Below are positions 1 through 10,945 of a stretch of 47,768 nt of DNA, piece after piece. The notes beneath the pieces are model-generated. The model saw nothing but the letters and a program-made list of their open reading frames with translations. It made no database searches and was not told where the DNA came from. Numbering within the stretch: the stretch's first letter is position 1; every line of letters starts with the position of its first letter. The translations under genes and the position numbers were made by a program. Origin of the DNA: Pseudomonadota bacterium (GTDB taxonomy: Bacteria; Pseudomonadota; Gammaproteobacteria; Competibacterales; Competibacteraceae); NCBI GenBank assembly GCA_030917925.1, contig JAUPTV010000291.1, positions 1-47,768 of the forward strand, in the 5' to 3' direction.

Positions 1-1742
1 GCCAGAATACCCGGCGCATTCCGGTTATTTTCGGCAACCCGCCCTATAACGCTAATCAGCGCAGTGAAAATGACAACAATAAAAATGAACCGGCGCCGAT
101 TGCCGACGCCCGCATCAAGGAAACCTACCTCGCGGAAAGTTCCGCGCAAAAGACCAAGTTATATGACCCCTATCTGCGCTTTTTCCGCTGGGCCAGTGAC
201 CGAATTGGCGACGCAGGCATTATTGGTTTAGTCACCAATCGCTCTTATCTGGATGCCCGGCATGCGGATGGATTCCGTAAAGTCGTCGCCCAGGAATTTC
301 AGGAAATCTGGATTATTGATCTGCAAAGCGATGTCCGGCGTAATCCCAAAATATCGGGTACAAAGCATAATGTATTCGGCATTCAAACCGGTGTAGCGAT
401 TAGTCTTTTCGTCCGCAACCCGCAACGGGAAGGTTGCGAGATTCGCCATATTGCGCTGGACGATTTTATGACCGCGATGGAAAAACGCCGCTGGCTGGCG
501 ACGCATCCGTTACGGCAACTGGCGCGGGACGGCGCATTAACCCGCCTGCGCCCGACCCTGCACGGGGGCTGGATCGATCAACCGACTGCCGACTGGTCCG
601 CGTTTTTGCCGGTTGCCGATAAAGCGGTGAAAGCCGGTCAGGCCGAAGCGGCGATTTTCCGGCTGTTCGCCAGCAGCATTAAAACCAACCGTGATGAGTG
701 GGTTTATGATGTGGATAAACGGCAACTCCGGCGCAAGGTGCAGTACTTCATTGCGGCTTTTAATCGCCAGATTGCTAGCGGCACTATGAATCCAGATACC
801 CTCGATTATTCCATCAAGTGGAGTAGTACGCTAAAAACCCGGAATAAACTACCCGCTTATTCAGCCAGGAAGCTGTTAACTTCGCTCTGGCGGCCGTTTG
901 TGAAACGGCATTACTACGCAGAAAAGGCGCTAAGTGACCGCCTGACCGCGTTGCACTATCAAATTTATGGCATGGATCTGAAACAGGCTAATCTCGGTAT
1001 CGGCATCTCCGGCGGCTCGGCCATGAAGCCCTTTCAGGCACTGGCGTTTAATGGCTTGGCCGATTATGAATGTGTTGAAAAGAATCAGTTGTTGCCGCTC
1101 TGGATTTACGCTACCGACGGTTCCCGACAGGACAATATTACTGACTGGGCGTTGACGCAATTCCGCACACATTACACTGATTCCACTATCGAAAAGCCGG
1201 ATATTTTCCACTACGTCTATGCGGTGCTGCATCATCCCGTTTATCGGGAAATCTATGCGCTTAATCTCAAAGCGGAAATGCCTCGTATTCCGTTTTATCC
1301 CGATTTTTGCCCATGGGCCGCCTGGGGGCAGGCGCTCATGGATCTGCATACGGGATTTGAGAACGTGGAACCCTGGCCCTTGGTGCGCCGGGATGACCGA
1401 GCGGTGCCAATACCTTCCAAACCCCGGCTCAAGGCGGACAAGACTGCGGGCGTCATCGAGATTGACAGCATCACCCGACTGGAAGGTGTCCCCGCGCAAG
1501 CCTGGGACTATCGGTTGGGAAACCGCTCGGCGCTGGAGTGGATTCTGGAGGAATACCAGGAAGCGACGCCCCGCGATCCGACTCTTCGTGCCCAGTTCAA
1601 TGATTATCGCTTCGCTGATTACAAGGAATCCGTGATTGACCTGCTCTGCCGGGTGACGCGGGTGAGTGCGGAAACGATGAGCATAATCCGCTGCATGGAC
1701 CGTGCTTCCCAGGATCATGCAGACTCTGATAGCGCGAGTTAG
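1..1742 (+). CDS. Type ISP-like restriction-modification enzyme, C-terminal part (5' end outside window)
   Basis: Frame is open from the window edge through the listed 424 aa ORF. Upstream translation reads QNTRRIPVIFGNPPYNANQR, with an NPPY amino-methyltransferase motif IV. The C-terminus (PDIFHYVYAVLHHPVYREIYALNLKAEMPRIPFYPDF) resembles the type ISP specificity domain. Confidence 0.8.
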   Translation, partial: QNTRRIPVIFGNPPYNANQRSENDNNKNEPAPIADARIKETYLAESSAQKTKLYDPYLRFFRWASDRIGDAGIIGLVTNRSYLDARHADGFRKVVAQEFQEIWIIDLQSDVRRNPKISGTKHNVFGIQTGVAISLFVRNPQREGCEIRHIALDDFMTAMEKRRWLATHPLRQLARDGALTRLRPTLHGGWIDQPTADWSAFLPVADKAVKAGQAEAAIFRLFASSIKTNRDEWVYDVDKRQLRRKVQYFIAAFNRQIASGTMNPDTLDYSIKWSSTLKTRNKLPAYSARKLLTSLWRPFVKRHYYAEKALSDRLTALHYQIYGMDLKQANLGIGISGGSAMKPFQALAFNGLADYECVEKNQLLPLWIYATDGSRQDNITDWALTQFRTHYTDSTIEKPDIFHYVYAVLHHPVYREIYALNLKAEMPRIPFYPDFCPWAAWGQALMDLHTGFENVEPWPLVRRDDRAVPIPSKPRLKADKTAGVIEIDSITRLEGVPAQAWDYRLGNRSALEWILEEYQEATPRDPTLRAQFNDYRFADYKESVIDLLCRVTRVSAETMSIIRCMDRASQDHADSDSAS

Positions 1743-3669: not shown

Positions 3670-5052
3670 GTGGATACCGCGATTATTTTTGACCTGGCGC
3701 TGATCGGTAAATACGACAAGGCCGGTCCCCGCTATACCTCTTACCCGACCGCTGTGCAGTTCCATGACGGGTTCGGTGAAGCGGAATATCGGGAACAGGC
3801 GCTGGCCAGTAATGCCAGTGGCCGACCGTTGTCGCTGTATCTGCATATCCCCTTCTGCGATACAGTGTGCTTCTATTGCGCCTGCAACAAGATCATCACC
3901 AAGAACCGCCGGCATACGCTGCCTTATCTGGAGCATCTTCACCGGGAAATTGCGTTGCAGGGTGCCTTGTTCGACCGTTCCCGGCCGGTTACGCAACTGC
4001 ATTGGGGCGGCGGTACGCCCACCTTTATTAGCGCCGACCAGATGCGCGAATTAATGCGGGTCACCGGCGAATATTTCCAGTTACTGCCTGACGATAGCGG
4101 CGAGTATTCCATCGAGGTCGATCCCCGCGAAACCGATGACGGCACGGTGGGTCTGTTGCGGGACATTGGCTTTAACCGGCTCAGTCTGGGCGTTCAGGAC
4201 TTTGATCCCGAGGTGCAGAAAGCGGTCAACCGCCTGCAATCCCGGGAGATTACGCTGAAGGTGATGGAAGCCGCCCGCACCGAGGGCTTTCATTCGATCA
4301 GCGTGGATTTGATTTATGGACTGCCCTTGCAGACCGTGGCCAGTTTTACCCGGACCATTGACGACATTATCGCCCACAATCCGGACCGGATTTCGGTATT
4401 TAATTACGCGCACTTGCCCGACCTGTTCAAAACCCAGCGCCAGATCGATGCCGACTTATTACCGCCGCCAGCGGTGAAACTGGAGATTCTGAAAACGGTG
4501 ATCGAGCGATTGACCGGGGCTGGTTATGTCTATATCGGCATGGATCACTTCGCGAAGCCGGATGATGAACTGGCGCTGGCGCAACAATCCGGGACGCTGT
4601 ATCGCAATTTTCAGGGTTATAGCACGCACGCGGATTGTGACCTGATCGGACTAGGCGCGACCTCGATTGGGGTGGTCGGCGACAGCTACAGCCAGAATTT
4701 AAAGGGATTGGAAGAGTATTACGCCCGGATTGCCGAAGGACGAATTGCGGTCTTTCGCGGTGTGCAACTGAATGATGATGACCGGTTACGGCGGGCGGTG
4801 ATTACGACGTTAATCTGTCATTTTTCCCTGGAATTCTCCGCGATTGAGCGCCAGTACAGCATCGTGTTCCGCAACTATTTCACCCTGGAACTGGCGGAGC
4901 TGGCAGACATGCAGGCGGATGGATTATTAGCGCTGTCCGGGACCGGGATTCAGGTGCTACCGCCGGGTCGGTTGCTGATTCGCAATATTTGCATGACGTT
5001 TGATCGCTATTTGCGAGAGCAGAAACAGCAACGCTTCTCCAAGGTGATTTAA
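3670..5052 (+). CDS. hemN: Oxygen-independent coproporphyrinogen III oxidase (radical SAM)
   Basis: PRYTSYPTAVQFHDGF; YLHIPFCDTVCFYCACNK radical SAM cysteine motif; full length 460 aa. Confidence 0.96.
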   Translation: MDTAIIFDLALIGKYDKAGPRYTSYPTAVQFHDGFGEAEYREQALASNASGRPLSLYLHIPFCDTVCFYCACNKIITKNRRHTLPYLEHLHREIALQGALFDRSRPVTQLHWGGGTPTFISADQMRELMRVTGEYFQLLPDDSGEYSIEVDPRETDDGTVGLLRDIGFNRLSLGVQDFDPEVQKAVNRLQSREITLKVMEAARTEGFHSISVDLIYGLPLQTVASFTRTIDDIIAHNPDRISVFNYAHLPDLFKTQRQIDADLLPPPAVKLEILKTVIERLTGAGYVYIGMDHFAKPDDELALAQQSGTLYRNFQGYSTHADCDLIGLGATSIGVVGDSYSQNLKGLEEYYARIAEGRIAVFRGVQLNDDDRLRRAVITTLICHFSLEFSAIERQYSIVFRNYFTLELAELADMQADGLLALSGTGIQVLPPGRLLIRNICMTFDRYLREQKQQRFSKVI

Positions 5053-5106: not shown

Positions 5107-6222
5107 TTAAAGCGGAAGCGCCATGGTTTCTCCCTGCTTCGATGTTTTTGATGTTGATAGGGGCGTCTTTCCTAACAAAAGATCCCTGACTGCCGAAGCT
5201 ACCGATTCAGCCAGCGTACAAGGTACTGCGTTGCCAATCTGGCAGTATACCTTGCTTTGCGGTCCAACAAATTTGTAATTAGCAGGAAAACCTTGAAGTA
5301 AAGCCGCTTCATCCACGGTAAGACGCCTCAAGTATTTGGGAACCTCAATATTCGGTAGGGGAGGCATGCCCTTCCATAGCTTTTCGTGATATTTTTCGAC
5401 CCAACTCTCTTTATATTCATAGAGATGTTGTTCGTCAATAATCGGCGTTCGATTGCCGCCCATACTGGCGGGAAGGGTATTAGACCATCCATCAGGATTG
5501 AGCGGGCGTCCCTGGCCATTGAATAACATTCCAGCATACGGCGATTTTCTTAACACTGGGTTTACAGCAAGTGTTATTTTAGCCTTACAGATCTTGGGAT
5601 TGGTTTTCGATCCAGCGGGACCCAGATGCTGAATTACATCGCGCACGGCCAGAGCTTTTTTCTGGTAGGCATCGAGAAATCCTAATCGGGCGTCTTGCTT
5701 CATCTCAATAGCGCCGATGAAGAAAATCCGCTCCCGGTTTTGAGCGGAACCATAGTCCTTTGCATTTAATACATTCATGGATACCGAGTAGCCGAGTTGA
5801 GAGAACGATCTGAATAGTTCTTCTCTGACTTTCTGGAATTTTTCGAGGAAAGCGAGTGCTTTCACATTTTCCATAACGAAGATCCGTGGTTGAACTGCCC
5901 GCACCACGCCCATAAACGAAAATATCAATTGGCTGCGCGGGTCATTAAGGTCCATTTTTCCGGCGACGGAAAAGCCTTGACAGGGCGGACCGCCAAATAC
6001 CACATCCACGCCACGGAATGCCCTCAACGTCTCGATATGCTGATTGATATCGCCTTCAAATAACTCGGAATCCTGGTGATTCGCTTGGTAGGTTTTACCC
6101 GCAAAGGCGTCGATCTCATTGGCCGCAAGAATCTTGAAGCCGGCCCGTTCAAACCCGACATCCATACCACCGGCCCCACTGAAGAGGGAAATTGCGGTTA
6201 AAGACTTCATGAAATATTCCAT
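5107..6222 (-). CDS. DNA (cytosine-5-)-methyltransferase
   Basis: LTAISLFSGAGGMDVGFERAGF (motif I), FGGPPCQGFSVAGK (motif IV), MENVKAL (motif VI), YCQIGNAVPC (motif X). Start at MEYFMKS (6222) or MKS (6210). Confidence 0.94.
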   Translation of the reverse strand: MEYFMKSLTAISLFSGAGGMDVGFERAGFKILAANEIDAFAGKTYQANHQDSELFEGDINQHIETLRAFRGVDVVFGGPPCQGFSVAGKMDLNDPRSQLIFSFMGVVRAVQPRIFVMENVKALAFLEKFQKVREELFRSFSQLGYSVSMNVLNAKDYGSAQNRERIFFIGAIEMKQDARLGFLDAYQKKALAVRDVIQHLGPAGSKTNPKICKAKITLAVNPVLRKSPYAGMLFNGQGRPLNPDGWSNTLPASMGGNRTPIIDEQHLYEYKESWVEKYHEKLWKGMPPLPNIEVPKYLRRLTVDEAALLQGFPANYKFVGPQSKVYCQIGNAVPCTLAESVASAVRDLLLGKTPLSTSKTSKQGETMALPL

Positions 6223-6261
6223 TTTCGAATAATCCGTAAATTCTAGCACAATGCCGAGCTT

Positions 6262-7602
6262 ATGAACAAGAACAAATCGATTTATTCGCCTGAATACGCT
6301 GATCTGGTCGAGTTGTTGACCCGAGAAAGGCGGCGACTGGGGCTTTCGCAGGCCGAGGTCGGTGAATCTATGGGTATGTCTCAATCTGATGTTTCCAAGA
6401 TTGAAAATCAGGACCGACGCATTGATGTTTACGAATTCAGAAAGCTGTTGGCTGCCTATCGCGTTCAGGATAACCCCAGACTTAAGCGCTATGTGCAGGA
6501 TTTCTTTGGAGTCATGATGAAAGTTGAAGAACGCAAGGAATTTGTTCATTACTGGCTGAACACCAGACTGAACTATGCAAAATCTCTTTCCGGAGAAGAA
6601 TTCAAGAAGCTCCACGATGAGGCAGCTATCTCTCAGATTTTAGCAGATTTGATCGAAACCAGCGCTAAAGGATTTCGTGGCGTGGTAGTGACTTGTTTAG
6701 CGGGCTATCATGTTGACAAGAGTTTTAACCCTCTGGTTGATTTTTATGCGTGTAACCCGCGCTCTATTTTTGAGCAGACCATTTGGTATGTACTGACTGA
6801 GTACAATATTCCGTGCGGAAAATCTGATCCACTCAATGTTGCAAAAAACATCAATAAACTCGATAGAAACTGGGCTAAAGATCGACGGCCAGAAAAAGCA
6901 GCGCTTGCCGCAGTAGCCTTTTTTGAGCGTTATTTTGGCGAGAATGACCCTGAACAACAATCTTTGTTGGAAGATTATTTTTTCTATAAACTCATCAAGT
7001 ATTCAGAAAGCATCGCTGCTATTCCAGTTGCAGGCGCAGATATTTCCGGTGTTTCCAGGCAGTGGCTTGCCGAAAATCTTATTCAATTCTCACTCAATGC
7101 CCCTGAATCTGGGGCAACGCCTCAATGGCTGATTGCTTGCTTATTGAAACAACTATTTAAAGGAAGCACTACCTTGGTTTGCGGCAGTGAAGAAAGTGTA
7201 TTTGGCACCAATACCACATCAAAGAAACCCGCTGATCTTTGGTTGGAATACAATGACAAGGTGATATCGCTTTTTGAAGTGACGTTAAAAAAAATTGACC
7301 AAAAACGACTTGAAGACTTTATCGAGTCTACGCATCTTTCCGGATTAGACGGGATTCCAGTAACCTTTATTTGCCGAATTCCAGAAGATATTTCAACGCT
7401 TAAAGATGTGACCGCCAACACGCTTTTTTATAAAGGACGTATGATTGATTTCGTAGATTATTCATCGTTTATTCGATCCTCATTTGCTCTGGTTCACGCA
7501 GAAGGGGCCAGCGAAATATACGATTCCATGCAGGCATTTGTAAAACAAATCACCACATCCGTAAAAGCGAAAGGCGTTTGGAATTCGATTTTTAATAACT
7601 GA
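6262..7602 (+). CDS. XRE-family HTH protein with a putative C-terminal PD-(D/E)xK-like nuclease domain
   Basis: N-terminal [50 protein letters not shown]-terminal [25 protein letters not shown] resembles a PD...ExTxK nuclease core (D about residue 325, E about 339, K about 343). Divergent from the cytosine methyltransferase. Confidence 0.7.
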
Positions 7603-9716: not shown

Positions 9717-10091
9717 ATGACCCGGATTATTCCCTCTGACATCAGCCCGTTGGCTCTGGCGGGCGCTCACTCCTGGGAACTGGACACACTGGCGCAGCTT
9801 AAGAACCTGCTTGGCCCGGAGTATGTCCTGTTCCACAGCGTCCATTGGAGTTTCAGCCAGGGCCAGGGCACCCGTTTTGGAGAGATTGATTTCATCCTGG
9901 TCAACCGCGCAGGGGCCGTGCTGATTTACTTTGGCATCCCGGTGCTGGAGGTCAGCGGGGGACTGGAAGCGGTCTACAGCACGCTGTTGGCCATGGAGAC
10001 GGCCATCAAGGACTTGATGACCCTGACCGTGGTGAAAGCGGCGCGGGATACCGGGGAGTACCTGAAAACCCAGTATCGCTTTTCCCGGTGA
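9717..10091 (+). pseudogene. Truncated NERD-like nuclease N-terminal fragment
   Basis: AGAHSWELDTLAQLKNLLGPEYVLFHSVHWSFSQGQGTRFGEIDFILVNRAGAVLI resembles the NERD start. The expected following E-x-K segment is replaced by unrelated sequence, and the ORF ends in the palindromic repeat. Confidence 0.55.
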
Positions 10092-10820: not shown

Positions 10821-10945
10821 GATATGCAGGTGGATGGATTGTTGGCACTGTCCGGGATCGGGATTCAGGTACTACCGCCGGGTCGGCTGTTGATTCGCAA
10901 TATTTGCATGAACAGAAGCAGCAACGCTTTTCCAAGATGATTTGA
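10821..10945 (+). pseudogene. hemN 3'-terminal fragment (second copy)
   Basis: Aligns by eye with 4906-5052 of hemN: atgcaggtggatggattgttggcactgtccggg...cagcaacgcttttccaagatgattTGA, with an internal deletion of roughly 22 nt after atttgcatga. Confidence 0.88.

Follow-up and report, generated by a model that had tools for sequence, protein, structure and literature searches.

The window, i.e., the whole stretch of 47,768 nucleotides of a Competibacteraceae genome that was analyzed, contains a divergent pair of genes, which are both intact and lie where a first-pass annotation had placed them. One gene encodes an m5C DNA methyltransferase (M), and the other encodes a protein that combines an N-terminal controller part (C) with a predicted C-terminal restriction endonuclease part (R) and is called CR below. 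The locus has the following features (the basis of each assignment is given in brackets):

5107..6210, minus strand: m5C DNA methyltransferase gene (M), 367 amino acids from the conserved start (Pfam PF00145, alignment with 11 relatives)
6214..6233, no strand: conserved operator ATATTCCATTTTCGAATAAT, TATTC-N7-GAATA, presumed C-box (conserved in M/C intergenic regions)
6244..6252, plus strand: candidate -10 element TAGCACAAT of the C-R promoter (resemblance to TAnCAyNAT in relatives)
6262..7602, plus strand: CR fusion gene, 446 amino acids (same fusion in locus L027, 84% identity)
6262..6516, plus strand: controller (C) part, XRE helix-turn-helix, amino acids 1-85 of CR (Pfam HTH_31/HTH_3, PDB match 2ef8)
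6508..6519, plus strand: GGAG-N5-ATG, kept start of the ancestral separate endonuclease gene, Met86 (alignment of 14 endonuclease starts)
6517..7599, plus strand: restriction endonuclease (R) part, EcoT38I-like, amino acids 86-446 (AlphaFold, Foldseek)
7222..7290, plus strand: predicted catalytic core K321-K322-x-x-D325 ... E339-x-T341-x-K343 (invariance in homologues, predicted beta-strands)

The first-pass annotation had described a complete m5C methyltransferase with PPCQGFS and ENV motifs and, divergent from it, an XRE-HTH protein of 446 amino acids, and both descriptions were confirmed. M contains the two motifs and matches the Pfam family DNA_methylase (PF00145) with an E value of 1.2e-69. 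Only the 5' end of the listed open reading frame of 502 amino acids is too long; an in-frame ATG at 6222 falls within the conserved operator, and the ATG at 6210 is the conserved start in the alignment with 11 relatives. The N-terminus of CR matches HTH_31 (E 1.4e-9) and HTH_3 (E 3e-8). It also holds true that both genes are AT-richer than their neighbors, with a GC content of about 0.41-0.48 versus 0.55-0.63, and that no separate endonuclease or controller gene adjoins M and CR in the window.

The 3' end of a hemN-like gene (4906-5050) is repeated about 5.9 kb downstream at 10821-10943 (90% and 86% identity), and M, CR, a CoA-transferase gene, and an open reading frame with a NERD domain are located between the two hemN 3' ends. 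This arrangement looks like an old block insertion. The NERD open reading frame (9717-10091) is short, its match to the nuclease-related domain is weak (E 6e-4), and it is probably a truncated gene. In the loci L027 and L028, which contain the same fusion, a nicotinate phosphoribosyltransferase-like gene, and not a hemN-like gene, lies to the left of M. Near the left end of the window (468-1742), an open reading frame of 424 amino acids with its own ATG encodes a Type ISP C-terminal specificity domain (PF18135, E 1.3e-83), and may be a fragment of a different restriction-modification enzyme.

The controller part and the operator between the genes

The best PDB match of the C part is 2ef8, the structure of C.EcoT38I (E 4e-9), and relatives that encode C separately have C proteins 41-52% identical to it. 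Judged by these similarities, the HTH domain of CR is the counterpart of both the relatives' separate C gene and C.EcoT38I. A small XRE-type controller is thus found upstream of R and co-oriented with it, one of the features by which C-controlled type II restriction-modification systems are recognized. Starting from the 2ef8 match, EcoT38I loci were located in viral contigs. One of them, L060, is the EcoT38I locus itself, its R having the same length as 7e8r (E 4e-234) and its C being 2ef8. EcoT38I resides in P2-like prophages of E. coli, and it shares with the window the gene order, in which M is divergent from C and R, as well as an XRE-type C protein and the operator TATTC-N7-GAATA. The M of the window is 55% identical to the M of this locus (BLASTP, 392 bits), and the target recognition domains of the two are nearly identical, both reading KSPYAGM-FNGQGRP-NP...T-ASMGGNRTPIIDE-HLY. 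In contrast to the window, C and R of EcoT38I are separate, overlapping genes.

The operator has a length of 20 bp and is positioned directly upstream of the M start. As a symmetrical element ahead of C, it would correspond to the C-box that is typical of C-controlled systems. The TATTC-N7-GAATA motif is present in all M/C intergenic regions (9/9), and the EcoT38I loci contain TATTCGATTTTGGAATA at the corresponding position. Alternatively, it can be read as a pair of AATATT-like palindromes that are 15 bp apart. The extended motif ATATTCN7GAATAWT occurs once in the 4.2-Mb genome, and the reversed control does not occur (0). The operator is followed by the TAnCAyNAT element, and most relatives have a similar element about as far from it. 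A scan of the M-C intergenic region for consensus sigma-70 promoters did not reveal a promoter, and therefore TAGCACAAT can only be called a candidate -10 element. A C-R transcript that originates from it would start very near the ATG and would be almost leaderless. Binding of the operator by the C domain and the direction of regulation are proposed by analogy with known C proteins.

Predicted fold and catalytic core of the endonuclease part

A C-terminal segment resembling a PD...ExTxK core had been noted in the first-pass annotation, and this observation stood up to closer analysis. D325, E339, T341, and K343 are invariant in 8 homologues with identities down to 30%, the predicted core is invariant in 8-9 homologues, and its residues are located on beta-strands predicted by AlphaFold. 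The models, which have mean pLDDT values of 75.5 for the whole CR and 86.9 for R alone, exhibit a helical N-terminal half that is followed by strands and helices in the order of PD-(D/E)xK enzymes. In Foldseek comparisons with the PDB, the EcoT38I endonuclease was the sole significant match of both models, with E values of 3.8e-8 for the whole CR and 6.3e-9 to 7.2e-9 for R alone (TM 0.65/0.66 to 7edb chain A). The matched structures are 7edb and 7e8r (Foldseek probability 1.0). The predicted fold of the C-terminal part is nuclease-like, and on the basis of the models R is an EcoT38I-like PD-(D/E)xK restriction endonuclease that is predicted to cleave DNA.

The sequences of the two enzymes have diverged widely. 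The R of the window is only about 16-17% identical to that of EcoT38I, and the core reads E-x-T-x-K instead of E-x-K. The BLASTP E value of 0.066 is at noise level, and an hhalign alignment was colinear over 323 columns with an E value of 0.009, but with a probability of only 4%. Therefore, the kinship of the two enzymes rests on the fold, the partner genes, and the operator. The hhalign alignment pairs the core lysine of the window with K249 of EcoT38I. K343 lies at E+4, two residues past the canonical place at E+2, and therefore the putative catalytic lysine is assigned only tentatively. Profile searches of the PDB with alignments of R as well as scans of the R part of the window with Pfam and NCBIfam yielded no matches. 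Two matches were too weak to be used: one member of the R family matched the PADLOC model REase_II PDLC03410 at 4e-4, and one member matched the Pfam family RE_SacI (PF09566) at E 0.025. An assignment of R to the SacI family was considered and discarded, since the latter match is not significant. Searches with these two models did not retrieve useful relatives.

Split relatives and the origin of the fusion

As would be expected for a restriction-modification system, homologues of R were found next to the same m5C methyltransferase in almost all of the loci examined. C and R are split, but arranged in the same order and with M divergent, on the Psychrobacter plasmids pA53P3 and pA15BP2, on the Acinetobacter plasmid pAS6-4, in which R is frameshifted, and in three gammaproteobacterial genomes (G305, G128, and G181). 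The Psychrobacter and Acinetobacter loci have the same M and the same operator as the window, and their proteins are 42-48% (R) and 41-52% (C) identical to the respective parts of CR; however, C and R are two genes, and R is annotated as a hypothetical protein. Two restriction-modification systems of Psychrobacter pP62BP1 (PMC3346939) were also considered as relatives, but they belong to another family, specific for CCNGG. More distant homologues of R, with 27-31% identity, were found in phage and viral contigs (L032, L036, L037, and L038), and in L036 R and M are separated by an open reading frame for an HhH-GPD-like DNA glycosylase and an IS element. On the Paracoccus plasmid p8 (L051, 1964-5104), M is divergent from two genes, one encoding a small HTH protein and one a hypothetical protein of 555 amino acids, which is a distant relative of R, and a protein resembling the latter in L034 was detected by the R profile with an E value of 2.6e-4. 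These two seem to represent a larger branch of such systems.

A fused C-R frame exists in the window, L027, and L028, and it is one open frame of 446 amino acids in the first two. In both the R tree (support 98/99) and the M tree (support 100/100), the fused sequences group together as a single clade, and therefore a single fusion event is enough to explain them. Further fused cases were not found among 40 genomes of the order. In the split relatives the start of R is located at or inside the end of C, so that the two genes overlap or abut, and at this place the fused junction reads GGAGTCATGATGAAA. Met86 is in frame with C, the codon of Met85 directly precedes it, GGAG is located five bases upstream, and GGAGTCATGATG is identical at the R start of the window, L027, and L028. 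Judging from these sequences, a small indel would suffice to join the frames of C and R. In L028 (6001-6789), the fused gene is cut after amino acid 254 by a deletion that reaches the CoA-transferase gene, and M is intact. The catalytic core has been lost together with everything past amino acid 254, and this locus, which belongs to genome G068, represents a natural loss of R.

Fusions of controllers with restriction endonucleases have been described by Liang and Blumenthal, who reported five cases, all of them PvuII orthologues (PMC3850674). For one of them, CR.NsoJS138I, both DNA cleavage and activation of its own promoter were shown (PMC3850674). Like the protein of the window, it consists of an N-terminal controller and a C-terminal type IIP endonuclease in one open reading frame, with the methyltransferase gene divergent, but its endonuclease belongs to the PvuII family (CAGCTG), which is unrelated to the R of the window. 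PvuII orthology of the latter was ruled out by EcoT38I being the sole significant structural match, and therefore the fusion arose independently. In the literature searched, later reports of controller-endonuclease fusions were not found, and the described cases are confined to the PvuII family.

Avoidance of GRGCYC and interpretation of the locus

EcoT38I recognizes and cuts GRGCYC. A single GRGCYC site is present in the window, in comparison to 22.6 sites expected from a maximal-order Markov model. Hexamer statistics were obtained from a 258-kb sample of this genome and from whole-genome counts. The ratio of observed to expected GRGCYC sites is 0.05 in the sample and 0.04 in G068, a carrier from another genus, which corresponds to an about 20-fold avoidance, versus 0.43 and 0.20 in the non-carriers G778 and G772 from the same two genera. 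The respective values for GAGCCC, the asymmetric member of the set, are 0.07 and 0.05 in the carriers versus 0.49 and 0.30 in the non-carriers, and the near-site controls GAGCGC and GGGCGC have values near 0.9 in all four genomes. In whole-genome counts per Mb the three carriers occupy ranks 1-3, i.e., the lowest, among 39 genomes of the family for GAGCCC, for GGGCCC, and for all GRGCYC sites. For GAGCTC, the target of SacI, which falls within GRGCYC, they are at ranks 2-4 relative to the control. The chance that three given genomes are the three lowest is 1.1e-4 if genomes are independent, but two of the carriers share a genus, and since the carriers are related, the ranks do not represent 39 independent draws. 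G779, in which the system was not detected, is also low in GRGCYC. The genome G068 still avoids GRGCYC despite its truncated R, which suggests that the loss was recent. In the sample of this genome (L111-L130) GWGCWC is also strongly avoided, with a ratio of 0.12, indicative of a further restriction specificity in G068. The dN/dS values between the window and L027 are 0.09 for C, 0.11 for R, 0.13 for its catalytic half, and 0.08 for M. Together, the avoidance and dN/dS values of about 0.1 argue for a long-standing and active restriction at the predicted site GRGCYC, short of proof.

The reading as a type II restriction-modification system with a fused regulator and nuclease, which had been proposed in the first-pass annotation, is supported by these results; it did not yet include the relation to EcoT38I, nor GRGCYC as the likely target, the operator, or the kept internal start of the endonuclease. 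We regard it as highly probable that the locus encodes a type II system of the EcoT38I kind whose controller and endonuclease genes have been fused into one and whose predicted target is GRGCYC. M would be made first from its own promoter and would protect the host. The C domain of CR would then bind the operator between the divergent genes, activate its own promoter, and damp M, and the C-terminal domain would cut unmethylated GRGCYC in incoming DNA. In vivo, one CR polypeptide would perform both regulation and restriction. The gene content, the modeled fold, the common ancestry, the conservation of the operator, purifying selection, and the avoidance of the site are results of the analysis, and the exact site, the position of methylation, activation and repression, cleavage, and the order of expression are inferred. 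The fusion probably arose once, in the ancestor of the three related genomes, from an R start that overlapped or abutted the C stop, when a small indel joined the two frames.

The fusion might be only partial, however, if ribosomes also start at Met86 and produce a free endonuclease, and CR is mainly a regulator. The old R start has been kept with its ribosome-binding site, and therefore free R may still come from Met86. Among the three fused genomes (3/3), this start and the well-spaced Shine-Dalgarno sequence do not differ in a single letter, at dS values of 0.6-1.1 in the rest of the gene. On the other hand, this conservation concerns three sequences only, the VMM residues may be kept for protein reasons, and for NsoJS138I, a fusion of the PvuII type, the full-length protein alone was seen (PMC3850674). 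We consider that a partial fusion has a substantial chance of being true, albeit a somewhat smaller one than that of being false. It is far less probable that the endonuclease part is dead, and that the locus comprises an orphan methyltransferase and a leftover regulator. This state does exist in the close relative L028/G068, but both the window and L027 have an intact catalytic half under the purifying selection quantified above, the motif is invariant, and the strong avoidance of GRGCYC speaks against a dead enzyme.

The avoidance itself might be due to another enzyme of the same specificity or to a general tendency to avoid palindromes. These genomes contain few copies of many palindromic hexamers, and the genome of the window harbors two more m5C methyltransferases and one fragment. 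However, the asymmetric GAGCCC is depleted as strongly as the palindromes, and in carriers only, the near-site controls are not depleted, the carriers are the lowest of 39 genomes, and the carrier from the second genus is set off from the three genomes of that genus that are non-carriers, so that we consider such a cause unlikely. XRE domains are common in HTH-nuclease defense effectors and in toxin-antitoxin-like regulators, and the PADLOC models RmrA and capH match CR, but only its HTH. That CR is an unrelated protein of this type, which lies beside a methyltransferase by chance, is nevertheless very hard to reconcile with the constant pairing with the same M family, the split C and R in relatives, the EcoT38I fold, and the common operator.

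Within the favored reading of a fused system of the EcoT38I kind, a more speculative extension can be envisaged, to which we attach a low probability: the amount of unmethylated DNA might directly set the transcription of the endonuclease gene. A single CR polypeptide has to attend to both the operator and the cleavage sites, and both C and R function as dimers, so that these states would compete with each other. CR that is bound to GRGCYC or dimerized through R would not be free as activator, and thus unmethylated DNA would set transcription; the start at Met86 would add regulator-free enzyme.

The locus provides evidence that the fusion of a controller with an endonuclease has arisen independently in a second, structurally unrelated family of restriction enzymes, and its route can be read in the DNA: the genes overlapped, the frames were joined, and the old start was retained. 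A function and a likely target can now be proposed for a family of endonucleases whose members, encoded on plasmids and phages, are at present listed as hypothetical proteins. How the fusion of switch and enzyme affects the timing of protection before restriction is a question that has already been raised for the fusions of PvuII type, and the predictable site together with the split, fused, and truncated relatives makes it testable.
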